DNA of 54,125 nucleotides from positions 1 to 54,125 of the IMG/VR virus record IMGVR_UViG_3300048834_001323; one strand, given 5' to 3'. The notes beneath the pieces were generated by a model. It saw only the letters and a list, made by a program, of their open reading frames with translations. It ran no database searches and was not told the DNA's origin. Both the position numbers and the translations under genes were made by a program. Position 1 is the first letter of the stretch, and every line of letters starts with the position of its first letter. Of the stretch, positions 6,270 to 50,885 are shown piece after piece. Source of the stretch: a virus.

Positions 6270-6334
6270 GACCTTCTTTTGGTCGCAGTAAAAGTCGCAC
6301 ACAAATAAACGTAGAATTTAACGGAGAAGACGAA

Positions 6335-27246: not shown

Positions 27247-27852
27247 ATGGGAAACAGCTTTGATGTGAACAATGACGTAAAAGAGCCGGGAATCCGCGAG
27301 TGCTGGAAAGTCGTCTTAGCGATGGCGTTGTTTTTCTTCGCGTTCTGCATCGGCACAGTGTTTGTCGTTCGCTACCAAATCGGCCAAGAAGAAATTGCGC
27401 GCGCCGCATTAGCGCAAAAAGAACAGTCGGGTTTAGTTAAAATCAGCGCGGCGAAAGCGGCGAAAATTACGAAGAAACGGAAAACGAAAATGGTAAAAAT
27501 TGCACTTGGAACAACGAAGCAAGCGGATTTAGTGTCCACGCTTTGCACAATAGGCGCGCAAATACATGGTGCATCGGCTATCCAATACGGAATTCGGCCT
27601 CGCGGTGGCGGCGCTTGGGTAAAGCTGTATGACAGCGGCTCGCCACCATCGGATTGGGGCGTTGACGGTAGTGATAACGTGAAGGCGTCGGCTGATATTC
27701 CCCCCGGCGAATACGAATCGGTTTATGAAGTTCCTTATTCTTGCGACCCCGGCGGCCCCGATGCTCCCGGTTCCGGCACAGCGCAAAGAATTTGTGAATT
27801 TGAAGTCGTTTGCATCGAAAAAGTAGTCATCACTGCGACGAAAATCGACTAA
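27247..27852 (+). CDS. single-pass membrane protein in the fibre cluster
   Basis: The 201-residue protein has one transmembrane helix at about residues 22-43 (VVLAMALFFFAFCIGTVFVV), a basic stretch KITKKRKTKM at about 74-83, and a C-terminal beta-rich region with two Cys residues (CDPGG and CEFEVVC). No strong ribosome site is visible. It lies between the methyltransferase and a fibre gene. It may anchor or modify something at the membrane, but no function can be assigned. Confidence 0.55.
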   Translation: MGNSFDVNNDVKEPGIRECWKVVLAMALFFFAFCIGTVFVVRYQIGQEEIARAALAQKEQSGLVKISAAKAAKITKKRKTKMVKIALGTTKQADLVSTLCTIGAQIHGASAIQYGIRPRGGGAWVKLYDSGSPPSDWGVDGSDNVKASADIPPGEYESVYEVPYSCDPGGPDAPGSGTAQRICEFEVVCIEKVVITATKID

Positions 27853-27857
27853 ACATC

Positions 27858-29162
27858 ATGCCTCTCGATACCGACATCCCCTATCCCGAAGCGTGCAAAC
27901 AGGCGATCCGTATTTTGCGCTTGCGCGGCGTGCCGCCTGAGCTTTGGCCGGAAGAATACAGTCTGCTCGATTTGTATTACCATGATTCCGGCTCCGGCTC
28001 AGGGAGTGGCTCTGGTTCTTCTTGGACACTGATTTCATCCGGCATCGGCATCGGTGAACCGCGTGACATCGTGACGGGCTTCGACCTGACGCTTCCTTTT
28101 TGGATTCGCTTTGAAGGCGTGCAAGGCTCCGGCTCTGGTAGTGGTAGCGGCAGCGGCTCAGGTAGTGGTAGCGGCAGTGGAAGCGGCTCAGGTAGCGGTT
28201 CTGGTAGCGGCAGCGGCTCAGGTAGCGGTTCCGGTAGCGGTAGCGGCTCTGGCAGCGGTTCCGGCTCCGGCTCCGGCTCTGGCTCCGGTAGCGGCTCTGG
28301 CAGCGGCTCCGGCTCTGGCTCCGGCTCTGGCTCCGGCTCCGGCTCCGGCTCCGGCTCAGGTAGCGGCTCCGGTTCGGGAAGTGGGTCAGGCTCAGGCTGG
28401 AAGGACGACGACGGCGACGGCTGGCCGGATATTCCGGGAGGCGATCCTGACGATGATAATCCTGATGTTGGCGGCTTTATTGGCGATCCATCTGACGACT
28501 GGCCCGGAACTAATGGCGGCACAGGCGGCGATGGTATTGATGATGCGGGAAACACCAGTGCGACTGGATGCAAATACACGCTCTCGGCAAACCCGTTCCC
28601 CGAAGATGGCACCTATACCTATCAGTGGTATCTGGTCAATAACTTCATCAATACGACCATCGGGAGTCCTCCCGATGATTACGTGACGCCCGTAACAATG
28701 GGGACAAGCCAAACGCAAACGGTCGCCATCGCCTGCGGTAGAACGGCGGTTTATCAAGCGGACGTAACGCGCATGAGCGGCGAAACAGAACTTTGCACCA
28801 AGTCCGTCATTAGCCGCGTGATGTGTTCTTGCGGGGATTGTGATTTTGAGGTGACGAGCTTCCCGGCATCCGGCACTAAGGGTTCGTCTATTACAGTTGA
28901 GGGTTCAGGGCTTCAAGACACTTTCCTGTATCTCAACAGTGTGAGCGGGGATAAATTCTCTTCGATTAGCCAGAACACCAGTGACGACAACACTATCTCG
29001 TTTACGGTTCCTTCGACATGGAGCAATGGCTCAGGCTTTACGTCTATACCGAACGACACAGAAGTAACCATTTGGATATACGACAGGCTCGTAAGTCCGA
29101 CCTGCCGTAAGGGCTTCCCCTTCACAATCAACCCCTCCGGCAGCGGCAGCGGTGGCGGCTAA
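27858..29162 (+). CDS. fibre-like protein with long Gly-Ser linker and Ig-like domain
   Basis: The ATG at 27858 is preferred over the in-frame 27810. The 434-residue protein has a short N-terminal domain with [21 protein letters not shown], then an unbroken Gly-Ser alternation at residues 90-180, then an Asp-rich calcium-loop-like stretch ([14 protein letters not shown]), an Ig-like domain ([20 protein letters not shown]) and a second beta-domain ([20 protein letters not shown]). The Ig-like part resembles the N-terminus of the hub at 19955. A flexible tether carrying an adhesive tip is the simplest reading. Confidence 0.65.
28125..28397 (+). repeat. Gly-Ser codon repeat, 91 residues
   Basis: The run of 273 bases encodes strict alternating Gly and Ser. 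The codons are mixed: GGC and GGT for glycine, TCC, TCT, TCA, AGC and AGT for serine. The nucleotide repeat is therefore imperfect while the peptide repeat is exact, pointing to selection at the protein level. Confidence 0.9.
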
Positions 29163-37796: not shown

Positions 37797-38405
37797 TTAC
37801 GGTCTTCTTAAAATTCGGTAGCGAGTGTCAGTTGCGCCCTTCTGCCAAACCATCCACGAGAAATCCATTGTCGGACTTTTACCTTTCTCCTCCTCCAAAA
37901 AGCTCGGCCTCCAGTTGAGAGGTAATACATAGGACGGCGGATTATCTTCAAATAATTCCGTTCGGCTGGAGGCGTGCCAGTATTGAGACTTTAAGAAGAT
38001 AGCAAATCCATCTAAATCGAAATCAATACATTTCTCAATAAATTGAGAGGCAAGAGTAAATGGAGGGTTTGTCACAACCCAATCTCCCATTTTTACAGGA
38101 TGAGTTAAAAAATTCACATCGCCTTCGCCGTAACCCCTATCAATCAGATCGGTAGAAATTACGCTATAAGAACGAGAATCAAAAACCTTGCTGATATGCC
38201 CTTCTCCGCAGGCAGGCTCCCATATCGCAACATCGAGAGGAATGTTTAAGAAGTCAATCAAAGCGATTGTCGCTTTTTCTGGAGTTGGATAAAAATCTGA
38301 TTCTTTACGTTTTGTAGAACCCGCTCCGCCTATAATAGTGCTTGATTTTATTGGCGGCACTTCAAAAGAGGTCGTTTCTTTGGTCTTGTTTTCGGTTTTT
38401 AGCAT
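37797..38405 (-). CDS. DNA N6-adenine methyltransferase-like protein
   Basis: AGGAGA precedes the ATG. The 202-residue product shows SDFYPTPEKATIALIDFL, motif I IWEPACGEGHISKVF, a second-strand acid in ISTDLIDRGYG, and the catalytic motif WVVTNPPFTLA. NPPF is typical of N6-adenine enzymes. It lacks a large target-recognition domain, so specificity is unclear. It would methylate phage DNA, perhaps to evade restriction. Its start overlaps the end of the second methyltransferase gene. Confidence 0.8.
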   Translation of the reverse strand: MLKTENKTKETTSFEVPPIKSSTIIGGAGSTKRKESDFYPTPEKATIALIDFLNIPLDVAIWEPACGEGHISKVFDSRSYSVISTDLIDRGYGEGDVNFLTHPVKMGDWVVTNPPFTLASQFIEKCIDFDLDGFAIFLKSQYWHASSRTELFEDNPPSYVLPLNWRPSFLEEEKGKSPTMDFSWMVWQKGATDTRYRILRRP

Positions 38406-39109
38406 GATGCTATCTCCTGTTCAATTCTATTTCTGGCTACTTCAAAGTATTTATCGTCCATCTCGATGCCGACAAACTTCCGCTTGGTGCGTATGGCTGC
38501 GGCTCCGGCGGTGCCACTGCCCATTGCGAAGTCCAGTATCTTCTCATTTTCGTTAGTGTAGGTCTTGATGAGGTATTCAAGGAGAGCAACGGGCTTTTGG
38601 GTGGGGTGGAGTCTTGGTTTAGGCCTGCGGGACGCAACTTTAATAATACTGCCAGGATTCTTTGATTCGGCATCATATTTATTTGCATCAACTTCCTCTA
38701 ACTCAGCCCCCGGTTGATGGTCGGTTTTCCCTTTCTTAAAAGTGGTTCCATTATTCTGGTAAGCCTTCACAATCTTCATTCCTGATTCCATTCTCTTCAT
38801 TGGCTGCTTATTAAAACAACCGCGCCCGTCATTAAAAACCGAAATGATTTCATGGTATTTCATAGGCATAAAAGCCGCTGTCGCCATTCCGGAAGGACAA
38901 GTTTTTTCCCATATCCAATCATACTTGAACCAATCTAAATTACTGATCCGCAGAACACTGCTAAAAGGCTCGGAACCAAACAAAACAATCGCCCCTTTCG
39001 GCTTAATCAAGCGCTTCAACTGCAACCACATTGGCTCAAACGGGATCACACTGTCCCATTTACAGGCCGTTGTGCTAACCGTAGGGAGGGTCACAGATAA
39101 TTGCGTCAA
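38399..39109 (-). CDS. DNA methyltransferase (N4/N6 beta-type), C-terminal part of a frameshifted gene
   Basis: The frame contains most of a beta-class DNA methyltransferase: TTACKWDSVIPFEPMWLQL, KGAIVLFGSEPF, a target region around residues 65-160, LHPTQKPVALLEYLI and motif I ILDFAMGSGTAGAAAI. The catalytic DPPY motif is missing from this frame but is found immediately upstream in another frame, in the fragment at 39075-39236. The 5' end of this frame (MTQLSVTLPTVS) is therefore artificial. A one-base change would rejoin the two parts. Confidence 0.75.
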   Translation of the reverse strand: MTQLSVTLPTVSTTACKWDSVIPFEPMWLQLKRLIKPKGAIVLFGSEPFSSVLRISNLDWFKYDWIWEKTCPSGMATAAFMPMKYHEIISVFNDGRGCFNKQPMKRMESGMKIVKAYQNNGTTFKKGKTDHQPGAELEEVDANKYDAESKNPGSIIKVASRRPKPRLHPTQKPVALLEYLIKTYTNENEKILDFAMGSGTAGAAAIRTKRKFVGIEMDDKYFEVARNRIEQEIASC

Positions 39110-41084: not shown

Positions 41085-41651
41085 TTATAATTGAGCGGCA
41101 ACGTCTTGCTGGAGCGATTCGCGCCGCTTGGCGGTTTGCTTCATCACCTTACGGCCTTCGCCCGTCACGCTGTAATACGTCACGCCTTTGCCGCCCTGCA
41201 TCGACTTGGCCTGACCACGCGCTGACTTGATGAAGCCGCGCGACTGCAAGCGAGACAGGCAAGCGTATAAAGCGCCCGTAGCGATGGGGAAGCCGATCTT
41301 ATTGAGTTCTTCCTTGATCGCCACGCCATAAGCGTCTTTTTGGAGTTTGTCGGAGGCCATCATCGCCAGTTCTTCGGTCGTGTTGATGACCATGAGACTG
41401 CGGGATGGAGGCGCGATGGTTTCTTCTTTTTTATCGACGACTGGCTTTGGATCGACCGGAGCGGCCTTGATCGGCTCGGCCTTTGGCTCGGCCTTTGGCT
41501 TCGGCGCTGATACCGCTTTCTTGGCCTCGACCGGCTTCTTGGTAGCCGGAGCTTTAGCTGCGGCCTTCGCAGCGATAACTTTCTTTTCTTTGGGCGCGGC
41601 TTTCGGTTTTGCTGCGACTTTTGCTTTCTTGACTTTTTCTTGATCTGACAT
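41085..41651 (-). CDS. PadR-like winged-helix regulator with histone H1-like Lys/Ala/Pro tail
   Basis: AAAGGAG precedes the ATG. The first 80 of 188 residues are almost only Lys, Ala, Pro, Val and Glu, like bacterial histone H1-like tails. Residues about 95-185 form a PadR-type wing: YGVAIKEELNKIGFPIATG, LYACLSRLQSRGFIKSARG and TYYSVTGEGRKVMKQT. It probably binds DNA with sequence-specific and non-specific parts. A related but tailless protein is encoded next. It may control the early operon or organise phage DNA. Confidence 0.75.
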   Translation of the reverse strand: MSDQEKVKKAKVAAKPKAAPKEKKVIAAKAAAKAPATKKPVEAKKAVSAPKPKAEPKAEPIKAAPVDPKPVVDKKEETIAPPSRSLMVINTTEELAMMASDKLQKDAYGVAIKEELNKIGFPIATGALYACLSRLQSRGFIKSARGQAKSMQGGKGVTYYSVTGEGRKVMKQTAKRRESLQQDVAAQL

Positions 41652-41716: not shown

Positions 41717-42019
41717 TCAAATTTTACGACGCGCTTGCTGGCGGTTGTTTGCGGCCAAAGAAAGGGCTTCCGATCCGGCCTGCGTAATGGCGAATAATGA
41801 GACGTTGCTCTTGCCGCGAATCGCCTTGATCTTGACTTTTGACTTTGAGACCAATCCCTTCTTCTCCATTCGATTGGCGGCAATATAAAACTGCCCGTCA
41901 TTGGCGCTGATGCCGATGTCTTCGATCAACTCCTTGCACTCCGTCCCGGTAAGGGGGCCACGCGCCTGAAGTATCAAGAGAATGATTTCTTCGGCTGGCC
42001 CTAAAAAGTTATTTTTCAT
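41717..42019 (-). CDS. PadR-like winged-helix regulator
   Basis: The 100-residue protein has ILLILQARGPLTGTECKEL, a helical recognition region GQFYIAANRMEKKGLVSKS and the wing SLFAITQAGSEALSLAA. It resembles the C-terminal half of the neighbouring H1-tailed protein, suggesting duplication. Its ATG overlaps the preceding stop. It may form heterodimers with the neighbour. Confidence 0.65.
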   Translation of the reverse strand: MKNNFLGPAEEIILLILQARGPLTGTECKELIEDIGISANDGQFYIAANRMEKKGLVSKSKVKIKAIRGKSNVSLFAITQAGSEALSLAANNRQQARRKI

Positions 42020-45589: not shown

Positions 45590-46006
45590 TTACCATTCCG
45601 AATCTAATACGACGCTACCACTTTCCAACATTCGATCAATCTCGGATATAACACAATAACCGCGCCATCCATAAACTTCCTCGCATGATATAAGCTCGCC
45701 GTTATCGTCACGATCCGCAGTCATTGTATAAATGGTGCAATCGGTTAGTGCGCCAACTTCCTCAGGTCTTACAGTTTCAAGCGAAGAGTTTGCCCAATGT
45801 TCTTCTAATAGCGACCAAAGAAGATTATCATCATTTTGCCACATTGACGGGTGCCGTTTATAAGTCGCTTTTTCCTCAGCGATGTATCGGCGTCCTTTTC
45901 CTTTCAATACAATAATCATGCGTTGCTTATTGTAGAGAATTGTGGTGAGCTTGCCGCGCATTATTGTATAATCGGCGTTTTGTGTTGGATTCTTTTCTTT
46001 GTGCAT
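45590..46006 (-). CDS. unknown early protein
   Basis: The ATG follows the AGGAAGTAA leader used by several early genes. The 138-residue product has a Lys-rich first third (MIIVLKGKGRRYIAEEKATY) and an acidic Trp-containing remainder (LWSLLEEHWANSSLE, EEVYGWRGYCVISEIDRML). No function is evident. Confidence 0.5.
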   Translation of the reverse strand: MHKEKNPTQNADYTIMRGKLTTILYNKQRMIIVLKGKGRRYIAEEKATYKRHPSMWQNDDNLLWSLLEEHWANSSLETVRPEEVGALTDCTIYTMTADRDDNGELISCEEVYGWRGYCVISEIDRMLESGSVVLDSEW

Positions 46007-46063
46007 TTTGTTACTTCCTATTGCCTAAAGGCACGCCTAAAGGCTAAATTAGATTTTGAGTTC

Positions 46064-46124
46064 TAACACTCACTGCAACGGCGCGCCATTATAAGCAATG
46101 GCGCGCCGCTGAGTGTGAAAGTTA
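46064..46124 (-). repeat. GGCGCGCC hairpin element, copy 1
   Basis: The element is TAACACTCAC, then GGCGCGCC (46080-46087), a short AT-rich loop, GGCGCGCC (46100-46107), then TGAGTGTGAAAGTTA. The palindromes extend as an 11-bp stem (GGCGCGCCATT with AATGGCGCGCC), and ACACTCA pairs with TGAGTGT. It lies between two early genes, just past the end of the upstream one on the leftward transcript. Confidence 0.85.
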
Positions 46125-46136
46125 GGTATAAGGCGA

Positions 46137-46988
46137 TTAATCTTCTAATGCTATGCAAGCGCATAAAGGAATAGGATAATTACATCCTTTGCACTTTTCG
46201 ACTTTTGCTTTATGACGCCGATTATAGCGCGTCTTTGCCTTATAAGACGATTGATTATCGCCTTTCCAATTATCCGCATTGATGCCGCCATATTCGCGCC
46301 GCGCGATATAATTTTGCAGCTTCGCACTTTTGGAGCTATGATCCGGCGCGCCATATTTTTGATTGATGACGGTATAACCGGCCTTTTCTAATTGGCAAAC
46401 TACTTCCATAGCAATATCGCGCATTGATTCTTTGATATAAGAATCGCGGCAATCTTCAAAAGTATCAGACTCATAAACGTCTTCTGATTCAAAGCCCCAA
46501 CATGAATGGCTATAAGTTTCGCCGTCTTCATCTTCATAATCGCACACGATGCCAAAACATGAGACGCGATCCGTATAAACTTTTTTGATATAAGCGATAG
46601 TTGTTTGGATGTTGGCGGCTATGTTTTCCGCTTGCACTTGCTTGCTCGCGCCCTTATTCCAACCATTGCCCCAATCATCTTTTTTGGCCTTGTCTTTGTC
46701 TATAAGGATAATGGAATATTCGCGCCAACCATCACGCCAAAAATATCCGCGCGCGTCTTCTAATGATTCGCGCAAACTTTCGTTATAAGAGTATGAATAC
46801 TCTTCTTTAGTTGCCGCAAACTTATCGGCGCTGATAACTTCATGTTCATACCCATCATAATCAAACCACTTATAATCCTCATCATGCTCCAGCTTGACAT
46901 TGGCTAAAATGTCTTTGAAGTCAATTATTGCATTGACTTCTTTGGTAATGATCAGCTTGTCTTCTTTGCGTTCCGTTGTTGTGTTCAT
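46137..46988 (-). CDS. acidic early protein with C-terminal Cys cluster
   Basis: The AGGAAGTAA leader precedes the ATG. The 283-residue protein is acidic and aromatic-rich (DEDYKWFDYDGYEHE, YSYSYNESLRESLEDARGYFW) and ends with a basic stretch and CKGCNYPIPLCAC, a probable metal site. It contains SCFGIVCDYEDEDGETYSHSC in the middle. No family is recognised. The position in the first-transcribed part of the early operon and the acidity are compatible with a host-takeover or anti-defence role. Confidence 0.5.
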   Translation of the reverse strand: MNTTTERKEDKLIITKEVNAIIDFKDILANVKLEHDEDYKWFDYDGYEHEVISADKFAATKEEYSYSYNESLRESLEDARGYFWRDGWREYSIILIDKDKAKKDDWGNGWNKGASKQVQAENIAANIQTTIAYIKKVYTDRVSCFGIVCDYEDEDGETYSHSCWGFESEDVYESDTFEDCRDSYIKESMRDIAMEVVCQLEKAGYTVINQKYGAPDHSSKSAKLQNYIARREYGGINADNWKGDNQSSYKAKTRYNRRHKAKVEKCKGCNYPIPLCACIALED

Positions 46989-47059
46989 TGTCTTACTTCC
47001 TATAAGTAAAATTTTTGTGTCTTACTTCTTACTTCTTACAACTTGCGACCAAAAGAAAA

Positions 47060-47343
47060 GGCGCGCCTATAACTGCGACAGCGGCGCGCCAATAACTGCG
47101 ACAGCGGCGCGCCTATAACTGCGACAGCGGCGCGCCAATAACTGCGACAGCGGCGCGCCAATAACTGCGACAGCGGCGCGCCTATAACTGCGACAGCGGC
47201 GCGCCAATAACTGCGACAGCGGCGCGCCTATAACTGCGACAGCGGCGCGCCTATAACTGCGACAGCGGCGCGCCAATAACTGCGACAGCGGCGCGCCAAT
47301 AACTGCGACAGCGGCGCGCCAATAACTGCGACAGCGGCGCGCC
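47060..47343. repeat. tandem array of twelve 23-bp repeats with GGCGCGCC
   Basis: After one GGCGCGCC at 47060-47067, twelve consecutive 23-bp units run from 47068 to 47343. Each is (T/A)ATAACTGCGACAGC followed by GGCGCGCC. The units are identical except for the first base, which reads T A T A A T A T T A A A in order. The spacing is exact with no spacers, so it is an iteron-like array rather than a CRISPR. It fills the gap between two leftward genes. Candidate origin, partition or regulatory protein-binding site. Confidence 0.95.
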
Positions 47344-47356
47344 TATATAACTTCCT

Positions 47357-47767
47357 TTAGCTTGCGAGATAATAATACTCTTGACCTTTATAAGTGATTG
47401 ACGAATAATCATGCAGCAACTCTTTTGCGGCATACTCCCAATCAATACAATAAAAAGGCCATTGATTAGAGTTTGGCATCCCGCAAGTATCTTCCGCTAA
47501 TTCCTGAGCATACTCTTCAAAGTCATCTTCTAAAATCAATGTGACGCCGTGTATAAACTCACTGCCAATCTCTTCAGCGATTGATTCTAATTCCTTTAAC
47601 TCTTCGCCGTCTTTGCTGCTATTCCAGGCCGTTAAAAAGTCTTCGCACTCTTCGCACTCTTCGCAACTATCGCACTCTTCGCGCTCGTCATTCAAGGCAT
47701 CTTCGCGCAAACTTTCTAACTCTTCGATCCGTTCTTTTAATTCTCTTGTGTCAATTCGTGCGTCCAT
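47357..47767 (-). CDS. acidic early protein, plasmid/phage conserved type
   Basis: The AGGAAGTAA leader precedes the ATG. The 136-residue protein begins with heptads (RELKERIEELESLREDAL) like those of the protein at 44482, has an acidic Cys-rich stretch (ECDSCEECEECEDF), and then DDFEEYAQELAEDTCG and WPFYCIDWEYAAKELLHDYSSI, typical of conserved accessory proteins on plasmids and phages. Its end lies against the 23-bp array. A DNA-mimic or anti-restriction role is possible but not shown. Confidence 0.6.
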   Translation of the reverse strand: MDARIDTRELKERIEELESLREDALNDEREECDSCEECEECEDFLTAWNSSKDGEELKELESIAEEIGSEFIHGVTLILEDDFEEYAQELAEDTCGMPNSNQWPFYCIDWEYAAKELLHDYSSITYKGQEYYYLAS

Positions 47768-47812
47768 TGATTTTACTTCCTATAAATAAGATTTGAGTTG
47801 TAAGCGATTAGC

Positions 47813-47874
47813 TAACACTCACGGCAACGGCGCGCCAATATCATATAAAGGCGCGCCGCTGAGTGTGAAAGTTA
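47813..47874 (-). repeat. GGCGCGCC hairpin element, copy 2
   Basis: Same order as copy 1: TAACACTCAC, GGCGCGCC, an AT-rich loop containing CATATAAA, GGCGCGCC, then TGAGTGTGAAAGTTA. Loop sequences differ between copies while arms are kept, showing selection on the stem. Confidence 0.85.
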
Positions 47875-47948
47875 GTTTATGGCCTATGGCCTGTAAAGCA
47901 TAAAACGATTCGCGCTATAGTGACTTTGCGCGCTGATATTAAAATGGT

Positions 47949-48611
47949 TTAGCTTGCTAAGTTTGGCGCGCTATCCATTGATTCGACTAATGATTCAATG
48001 TCTACCCAGTAATCAGTGCCGTTTTGATTCTCAAAGTAAACATTTTCGGATTCCATAGCGGCCAAAAGAAGAGAATAGACTTCGCTATCTTCTTTTTGGT
48101 TAAGTTCCTCTTCGCGCTCAGGAAACTTTTTGACAAGCGCGCTAATAAAATCTTCTTTTATATAGCCATTAGTGAAACTTTCATATTGCCATTTTAATTC
48201 TAATTCGCTATGCAAATCTTCATCACATAATGGGTAATCGCACAACTTTTGAAGCAATTCGATCAATTCGTTAGACTCTTCAGTATTGGCGGTTAAAAAA
48301 TCAATACCGATATAAACCGATTCACCGCCATAGCTCCAATTTTCAATCAGAATTGATTCATTATCAGCATAATCACGCTTGAAAAATTCCACGTTTGCGG
48401 CTTGCACACTGCCGTTATGGTAGTCTGAGAATGAGAGAATGTCTAACGCGATATAATCGCCAGCTTGCAATTCGTTTGCACTTTCCACGCGATCATACTT
48501 TGAATAAAGGCCTTCGCGCATAATGTCACACTTTAAGGCCGTTTTACCTGTTACCAATTCCGTTAAAAAATTGGCGTGCTCTGTTGTGAGTTGACTAAAC
48601 ATTTTTTGCAT
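47949..48611 (-). CDS. acidic early protein of unknown function
   Basis: The AGGAAGTAA leader precedes the ATG. The 220-residue protein is acidic (ESNELIELLQKLCDYPLCDE, EREEELNQKEDSEVYS) with aromatic patches. No domain is recognised. It is the second gene transcribed leftward from the repeat-rich control region. Confidence 0.5.
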   Translation of the reverse strand: MQKMFSQLTTEHANFLTELVTGKTALKCDIMREGLYSKYDRVESANELQAGDYIALDILSFSDYHNGSVQAANVEFFKRDYADNESILIENWSYGGESVYIGIDFLTANTEESNELIELLQKLCDYPLCDEDLHSELELKWQYESFTNGYIKEDFISALVKKFPEREEELNQKEDSEVYSLLLAAMESENVYFENQNGTDYWVDIESLVESMDSAPNLAS

Positions 48612-48648
48612 TTTTCTTACTTCCTGTAAATTAGATTTAAGTGTTAGC

Positions 48649-48710
48649 TAACACTCACGGCAGCGGCGCGCCAATAATAAGTAAAGGCGCGCCGCTGAAT
48701 GTGAAAGTTA
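48649..48710 (-). repeat. GGCGCGCC hairpin element, copy 3
   Basis: TAACACTCAC, GGCGCGCC, loop with AATAATAAGTAAA, GGCGCGCC, then TGAATGTGAAAGTTA. One arm base differs from the other copies. The last bases form the stop of the first early gene. A partial copy with a single GGCGCGCCGCT lies near 48987, upstream of that gene. Confidence 0.85.
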
Positions 48711-48950
48711 GGAGTAAACTAATTGATCCAGTTCTTTTTGTGGCACTTTGCGCGCAAACTCATAACCGGCTTTTTTAATGTGTCGCGTTGTGGTAGCACT
48801 CCATTTTTCACAAGTTTGGACGAAATCGCCATTTGAAAGTTGCGCCGCTACTGGAGTCTCATAAGAAAACAACACTGTTACGGCAGTTGGCGCGCCTTTG
48901 GGCGTATACGTCAACTCGGTGCAGTTTGGAGCAATTTGTTTAATTCGCAT
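48708..48950 (-). CDS. small DUF8033-like protein, first gene of the leftward operon
   Basis: The AGGAAGTAA leader precedes the ATG. The 80-residue product has VTVLFSYETPVAAQLSNGDF followed by KWSATTTRHIKKAG, the pattern of small early proteins grouped as DUF8033 in phages and plasmids. It is the first gene on the leftward transcript. Function unknown. Confidence 0.6.
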   Translation of the reverse strand: MRIKQIAPNCTELTYTPKGAPTAVTVLFSYETPVAAQLSNGDFVQTCEKWSATTTRHIKKAGYEFARKVPQKELDQLVYS

Positions 48951-49079
48951 TTTTTTTACTTCCTGTAAATTAGATTTTACGACTAAAGGCGCGCCGCTAA
49001 TCGCAAACGGTTAAAATTCTAAAATCAATTCGCGCCGGTTTCACTTCTCTTTTCTAATCTGTTATTTTATTTATTTATT

Positions 49080-49155: not shown

Positions 49156-49750
49156 TGTTTGCTGATAATCAATCTTTGTGATTATGTTTGGTTCGGACGC
49201 CTTACGGCGCGCTACCATGTCATTATCAGCACTCATGCCACGTTATTATGATTCGTAAACTTTGCATTAAAGAAGTGATATAGAATAACGCTAAACTTTT
49301 GGAATTTTGGCGCGTTAGTTTAGGTTTAATCCATATTATCACGCGTTATTATTCACTGTTAAAAGTCGCATTTTCGCACACTGGGACAAACTTTAGTTTG
49401 TATGCTTTATTGCTATTTTTACGAATCGAATTATCAAGGATCAAACTTTCAAAAAGTATTTTTACGGATAACAGTTTGCTTTATTAGTATCACGGCGCGA
49501 ATTTTCGCGTTTATCCGCTAACATTGCCCCTACACTGCGATCCTAACACTTTATGAAGTTGTGTTTTACGACTTGAGATAATGAGAAATTGAAAAGATTT
49601 TAGCGTTCGCAAGTTTAGAGATAATACAGATTATAGGCGCATTGCCAACTGCGTTATTCATTCGTGCTAATGACTTTATGTGACTTCTTTTCGTTATTCT
49701 CTTTTCTCTTTGGTGCAATGTCAGTTCCGAAAATTTCTTTTCTCGACTGC

Positions 49751-49920
49751 GATGAATCTATTCTATCAGCTATCCGCTTGTGTGTCAACTGTTAGAGAAG
49801 ATTTATTTTTCTGATTAGATATTGCCCTGAGGCGTGCTCAACTTCGCTTCTTTCTAATCAGATGAATCTATTCTATCAGCTATCCGCTTGCGTGTCAACT
49901 GTTAGAGAAGATTTATTTTA
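49751..49920. repeat. duplicated 60-bp block around an inverted repeat
   Basis: The 60 bases at 49751-49810 recur at 49861-49920 with two differences, 110 bases apart. The 50-base spacer begins and ends with the inverted pair CTGATTAGA (49811-49819) and TCTAATCAG (49853-49861). Confidence 0.9.
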
Positions 49921-49932
49921 TTTCTTTTTTTT

Positions 49933-50112
49933 GGCGCGCGTGCTGATGCTCCAGTGCTGATGACGTGGCGCGCGTGCTGCTGACCATGAGCGCGCGTGCT
50001 GATGACCGAGCAGCGCGCGTGCTGATGACCGAGCAGCGCGCGTGCTGATGACCGAGCAGCGCGCGTGCTGATGACCGAGCAGCGCGCGTGCTGATGACCG
50101 AGCAGCGCGCGT
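49933..50112. repeat. second 23-bp tandem array
   Basis: Five perfect 23-bp units run from 49990 to 50104, each GCGCGCGTGCTGATG followed by ACCGAGCA. A degenerate 23-bp copy precedes them at 49967-49989, another degenerate stretch begins at 49933, and a partial unit ends at 50112. The sequence is unrelated to the array at 47060 apart from GCGCG cores, yet the period is identical. Confidence 0.9.
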
Positions 50113-50193
50113 TATTCCTTTATATCATGCGACCAAAAAGAAGAGAATTGTGCTTTTTTGCAGCATTTTTTAGCATTTTTCGCGCTTTTCTTT

Positions 50194-50515
50194 TTTGTGC
50201 CGGATTTTGTGCCGCATTTTTCCAAAAAGTGCCGCTTGTGCCAGATTATTTTTTGGGAGTGCCGGATTTTGGTGGGTTGAGTGACTTATTATCAAGGAAG
50301 TTGAGTAAAAATAATCCGGCACTTTTTCGAAAAATGCGGCACAAAGTGCCGGATTCAATGACACGTGCTTTATACTATGTAAATACAAAGTGCCGCTTTT
50401 GACGGATTTTTTTCTTTGATTAAGAGTGCAAAGAAAACAGAAAACACATTAAAATCTTTTTGCTTTTTTATTCACACTACAAAGTGCACTTTGATGCGTC
50501 ACAAGCGGCACTTTC
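50194..50515. repeat. field of GTGCCG motifs and long inverted repeat
   Basis: About ten copies of GTGCCGC, GTGCCGG or close variants occur in both orientations, often preceded by AAA. A 28-base arm at 50206-50233 is the inverted complement of 50318-50345 with one mismatch, and a second inverted pair is nested inside it (near 50238-50252 and 50305-50322). The layout suggests a multi-site operator or initiator-binding region. Confidence 0.75.
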
Positions 50516-50885
50516 TCATTTTAATCCTACTTTGCACGACAATACGCCATTTTTCTATCATAATACAAATTATATTACTTAATGTCTTATTGACTCCCTC
50601 CCTCCCGTCTTTTTTGTTGACCCCACCCCGATCCACAGGCGTGGGCAGGTGCGTAAATATACCGAGGTAACTCCCGAAAAGTTTTCAATATCTAAACAAA
50701 AAAGGAAGAAATAAGCTCGATTCACAACGAAAACCACTTCTTTCTGGTCACGCCCCAATCGAGTTACGACTGAGCCAATAAACATCCACCACAAGCCGCC
50801 TCCGAGCCTCCAACGCGCCCTGGGCCACGACCGAGCCACTATCGCCCTGCCGATCTACAGCCTCCAACCACTCATAGCATTGAAT

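Follow-up and report, generated by a model that had tools for sequence, protein, structure and literature searches.

The window analysed here, 54,125 bp long, covers an entire IMG/VR virus record and belongs to an unclassified tailed phage. Its rightward genes include those for the terminase, portal, capsid and tape-measure proteins, and a leftward set, which starts at about 49 kb and extends to 31 kb, comprises the replication and early genes. The five promoter-proximal genes of the leftward operon (48708-48950, 47949-48611, 47357-47767, 46137-46988 and 45590-46006) all have long leaders. Two duplicated sigma70-type promoters on the minus strand (49760..49898; near-identical copies at 49,898-49,870 and 49,788-49,760) read TTGACA-17-TAGAAT with a TG ahead of each -10, and are the presumed source of a transcript running through all five leaders. 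Each leftward TTGACA-17-TAGAAT promoter is carried by one copy of a duplicated 73-bp segment (49737-49919, 90% identical), and about 800 nt of untranslated leader separate the duplicated promoters from the first leftward gene. A 23-bp tandem array occupies positions 47060..47343 (minus strand), in the leader of gene 46137-46988. Upstream of it in the operon lies a gene for an ArdA-like antirestriction protein (47357..47767, minus strand; phrog_25535, 4e-17; phrog_2059, 3e-7), and downstream a 283-aa orphan gene (46137..46988, minus strand). The array lies 13 nt beyond the stop codon of the former and 71 nt ahead of the start codon of the latter; its placement between two leftward genes in the original prediction is correct.

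The same prediction had described twelve exact, palindrome-bearing 23-bp repeats with a T/A toggle. A base-by-base check confirmed twelve exact 23-mers of the form GGCGCGCC[T/A]ATAACTGCGACAGC from 47060, and added a thirteenth GGCGCGCC that closes the array at 47336-47343. Counted from the toggle base (47068), exactly 12 units of W-ATAACTGCGACAGCGGCGCGCC extend to 47343, and the next base is T. TRF reported a period of 23, 12.5 copies and a score of 534. On the mRNA strand, the array ends in GGCGCGCC-UUUUCUUUUGG. A coding role was set aside, as 23 is not divisible by 3 and the T-type units carry TAG in one frame. A CRISPR array was discarded as well, since the units are identical and head-to-tail, with none of the unique spacers that would separate CRISPR repeats.

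The toggle base follows the order T A T A A T A T T A A A (T), which makes nine runs and in which the longest repeated word spans three units. Every four-unit window of the toggle is unique, a property found in 18% of same-composition shuffles and in 10% of all 13-letter binary strings. The idea that the ordered toggle records the duplication history is thus not borne out: the string has no readable order, and its uniqueness is within easy reach of shuffling. On the other hand, because all four-toggle windows are unique, the order of the array would be resolved once k-mers reach about 92 nt, which lowers but does not remove the risk of an assembly error such as a collapse. Arrays that can be resolved by such k-mers are also the ones that assemble.

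The original prediction did not include the GGCGCGCC elements of the sister leaders, and these change the interpretation of the array. The window contains 22 copies of GGCGCGCC, about ten times the expectation (2.07 +/- 1.37 in dinucleotide shuffles, with a maximum of 5), and all 22 are confined to 46080-48995, the promoter-proximal part of the leftward operon. Hence, they are not due to chance. At least one copy is present in the leader of each of the five promoter-proximal genes (5/5), followed by a conserved Shine-Dalgarno box, AAATCTAATTTAYAGGAAGTAA; such leaders are absent from the subsequent leftward genes. Ahead of gene 46137-46988 the box takes the form AAATTTTACTTATAGGAAGTAA (46993..47013, minus strand), and related boxes precede the other four genes on the same strand at about 48956-48976, 48617-48637, 47773-47793 and 46011-46019. 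Two further copies of GGCGCGCC are intragenic, within the same 3 kb.

Three of the leaders carry a common element, which we call A (48648..48711, gene 47949-48611), B (47812..47875, the ArdA-like gene 47357-47767) and C (46063..46125, gene 45590-46006), all on the minus strand. Each of them is a long inverted repeat that reads CTAACTTTCACAYTCAGCGGCGCGCC / GGCGCGCCGYTGCMGTGAGTGTTAG on the mRNA strand; its inner arms are a pair of GGCGCGCC copies 20-21 bp apart (21 bp in A), with arms of 25-26 nt in all and an AT-rich, variable loop of 13 nt in A and B and 12 nt in C. The stop codon of the gene upstream of element A falls within the first helix. In leader E (48988..48995, minus strand, gene 48708-48950) there is only one GGCGCGCC, with TTT after it; this copy keeps the register of the 5' arm seen in A, B and C and has no nearby partner arm. 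A potential 11-bp pairing (GGCGCGCCUUU/AAAGGCGCGCC) links site E to an AAA-flanked GGCGCGCC inside the same gene (48889..48896, minus strand). This pairing would enclose the Shine-Dalgarno sequence and the start codon, and its fold is weak (z -1.4).

At its mRNA-3' end, the array can be aligned to the 5' arm of elements A, B, C and E, and the array unit has 17 bp in common with element A (CAGCGGCGCGCCAATAA). Based on this alignment and on the common 17 bp, we read the array as a probable recent, local tandem amplification of one half of the leader element. Recent unequal expansion, as originally proposed, is supported by the perfect units, the degenerate flanks and the shorter tandem duplications in other leaders of the same operon. 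These comprise GCCTTTAGGC twice in leader C (46010-46045) and GGCCATA twice in leader B (47880-47900); the array leader itself (leader D) has AAGAAGTA repeats at 47015-47035. Altogether, the short duplications suggest frequent slippage or recombination in this operon. A second 23-bp tandem array (49932-50112; GCGCGC plus GTGCTGATGACCGAGCA) sits immediately upstream of the leftward promoter pair, with exact units and, on the promoter side, degenerate ones. It has the period and the GCGCGC core of the first array and a different linker. Moreover, an 11-mer, TGCGACCAAAA, flanks both arrays (47044-47054 and 50128-50138), with a third exact copy in the window at 6277.

Expansion of this kind could also have left a functionless minisatellite: slippage or unequal recombination at a palindrome would have generated it, and it would be tolerated in an intergenic leader. 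The perfect identity of the units fits such an origin, as do the GCCTTTAGGC, GGCCATA and AAGAAGTA duplications, the second array with its different linker at 49.95-50.11 kb, and a linker that bears no sign of selection for RNA structure. We nevertheless consider this explanation unlikely. Nearly 290 nt of very stable palindromes would be expected to be costly for transcription and replication, and the array is nonetheless intact between two apparently intact genes. In addition, the parent element is conserved across five leaders.

Several features of elements A, B and C bear on whether the palindromes act in RNA. When the three are aligned, 3/51 arm columns vary vs 8/13 loop columns (Fisher p = 4e-5, a guide only, as the copies are three and related). 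The helices taken from the fold pair at 22/22 positions on the mRNA strand in all three elements, and at 21, 20 and 20 of 22 positions on the opposite strand; the mRNA strand pairs better because the departures are G-U on that side. The leader folds on the mRNA strand have z-scores of -5.1, -7.0 and -6.8. The arm and loop variation, the G-U pattern and the fold z-scores, which rest on about two independent changes, favour an RNA stem. The array behaves otherwise. Versions with shuffled linkers fold equally well (z -0.2 to -0.3 on the mRNA strand), and its better fold on that strand is explained by base composition. A test for RNA selection at the level of the linker found none, and since the linker contributes no structure beyond GGCGCGCC, the array displays a potential for pairing, not selection for pairing. 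The last array stem (-18.8 kcal/mol) has a long loop of 15 nt and is directly followed by a U-rich run, UUUUCUUUU, and so has the G+C stem and U-tract of an intrinsic terminator. No such U-tract is present in elements A, B and C.

The main rival to an RNA function is that GGCGCGCC is a palindromic DNA site for a phage or host regulator. In such a scheme, the pairs 20-21 bp apart (two helical turns) would control leader promoters, and the 13-site array would serve as a multi-site operator or as a titrating sponge. The palindrome is indeed found in every leader, even in E, which has no local hairpin, and the two additional copies are intragenic and fall within the same 3 kb, with zero elsewhere. 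The phage also encodes two PadR-like winged-helix proteins (41085-41651 and 41717-42019). When the leader elements were searched for SigA-like -10/-35 motifs with a spacing of 17-18 bp, leader B was the only one that scored, with TTCACA-18-TATGAT around its arm. Furthermore, a report on Cluster K phages describes inverted repeats with putative SigA-like promoters, the ESAS, for which regulator binding was proposed (PMC11373665). Yet the -10 would have to lie in the AT-rich spacer, where the element varies most (8/13 columns), and the -35/-10 spacing, by eye, is 20 in A and C vs 18 in B. The 23-bp period would place the sites of the array off a single face, and the bias of G-U pairs to the mRNA strand is not predicted by an operator. 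Multi-protein binding, one of the original suggestions, is a possibility. The operator scheme, taken as a whole, is possible but in our view less likely than not.

The original prediction had also considered origin iterons or a partition-like site. Direct repeats of 22-23 bp fall in the size class of iterons, and the array resembles those of plasmid and phage origins in its many exact, tandem direct copies of about that length. However, it sits in one of five similar leaders within a single operon, and its palindromic core recurs in the neighbouring ones. The GC skew keeps its sign across 47.2 kb, and an exact DnaA box is found nowhere within 2 kb. When the leftward genes and the main rightward genes were scanned with Pfam and PHROG, together with part of the small ORFs, no Rep or iteron initiator was revealed. 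ParA and ParB gave zero matches among the proteins scanned, and the array does not qualify as a parS-type partition site. A region between the divergent operons (50190-50520) has a better claim as a candidate origin or control region, judging from its motifs: it contains five exact copies of AAGTGCCG in both orientations, 29-nt inverted arms (97%) and, at 50468, an exact DnaA-type box, TTATTCACA. An origin or a partition centromere at the array is therefore unsupported, and we regard it as very improbable. The array is better understood as an extreme member of a private leader-element family.

The closest described analogue of this family is found in the leader repeats of Cluster K mycobacteriophages, which it matches in layout without being a member. 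In those phages (PMC3203893), start-associated sequences (SAS) contain a Shine-Dalgarno box, in about half of cases an imperfect inverted repeat of 17 bp, its spacer variable, lies just upstream, and SAS and ESAS are restricted to non-structural genes with large intergenic gaps. Putative SigA-like promoters have been seen in ESAS, whose role is called unclear in two further reports (PMC11373665; PMC12699233). As in those phages, a lineage-private, Shine-Dalgarno-containing box precedes the start codons of a subset of genes with long intergenic gaps, and an imperfect inverted repeat lies upstream in a subset of cases, with a spacer of 4-13 bp there and a loop of 12-13 nt in A, B and C. Unlike the SAS, a 13-bp motif, GGGATAGGAGCCC, no more than a few nt away from start codons, the box of this phage is AAATCTAATTTAYAGGAAGTAA and the core of its element is GGCGCGCC. 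No sequence homology exists between the leader element and SAS or ESAS, no close relation of this phage to Cluster K was found, and the spacer of its leader elements holds no clear conserved promoter. The amplification of one leader half-element to 13 tandem copies is a further difference, being undescribed in the accessible parts of PMC3203893 and PMC11373665. We found no description of similar amplified phage arrays in the searchable literature.

A second point of comparison lies in bacterial genomes. REP and BIME sequences are G+C-rich intercistronic palindromes in transcribed spacers, sometimes in tandem, that can form stable mRNA hairpins. The array likewise consists of G+C-rich, hairpin-capable palindromic units in a transcribed spacer. 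Unlike REP and BIME, the phage element is limited to one 3-kb operon of one phage and is tied to a Shine-Dalgarno box, and the array is made of exact 23-bp head-to-tail units instead of alternating inverted ones.

Searches for relatives returned no other instance of the element in the collections searched. The exact array unit had 0 matches in viral_contigs. Three copies of GGCGCGCC at 19-23 bp spacing occurred at 22 unrelated loci (51-74% G+C), none with this leader layout. The three matches to the hairpin pattern lay in coding sequence of G+C-rich phages, the six to the Shine-Dalgarno box pattern were in apparently coding contexts with none near GGCGCGCC, and the single match to GGCGCGCCTTT...GGAAGTAA was within a long open frame. 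The leader had no blastn match among phages and plasmids, and in the same groups the right-hand 14 kb had no nucleotide relatives. The proteins of neighbouring genes had no relatives in viral_contigs, where TerL relatives were only about 27% identical, and a scan of genome_contigs with the methyltransferase 38399-39109 recovered distant homologues only (40-52%). Rfam yielded no match, and no tRNA was found.

Our best reading, to which we give roughly even odds (about 50%), is that a cis-regulatory leader element, private to this phage, was recently amplified in tandem to give the array. The anatomy of the array, the element common to the leaders, the alignment between the end of the array and the 5' arms and the pairing on the mRNA strand are direct observations behind it. 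The most likely function, as far as sequence can indicate, would be that of a structured intercistronic mRNA leader that punctuates or damps expression. The promoters at 49.76-49.90 kb would drive a polycistronic early mRNA, in which successive GGCGCGCC copies would pair as G+C hairpins. These hairpins may separate neighbouring genes: they would protect the upstream 3' ends and, on the downstream side, lower or delay both read-through and ribosome loading. In the gene 46137 leader, the half-element and its linker would have been multiplied to 13 copies, and the last array hairpin with UUUUCUUUU could then act as a strong, terminator-like break that sets the ArdA-like gene apart from gene 46137.

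A more elaborate version, in which the array acts as a copy-number rheostat whose unit number varies between phage lineages and sets the expression of the surrounding genes, seems quite unlikely to us; if true, it would amount to a contingency-locus-like switch in an early, antirestriction-bearing operon. Leader elements that recur before a subset of early genes are known from one actinophage group, and the presence of this layout in a second, unrelated phage suggests a recurring way of organising early operons. The amplified copy offers a natural dose series, with 1, 2 or 13 sites before sister genes, that could separate the RNA and DNA explanations. Elsewhere in the window, beyond the tail genes, the rightward ORF 27810-29162 contains a long run of short tandem repeats (GGTAGCGGCAGCGGC...) at 28130-28372, likely of Gly-Ser type if read in frame.
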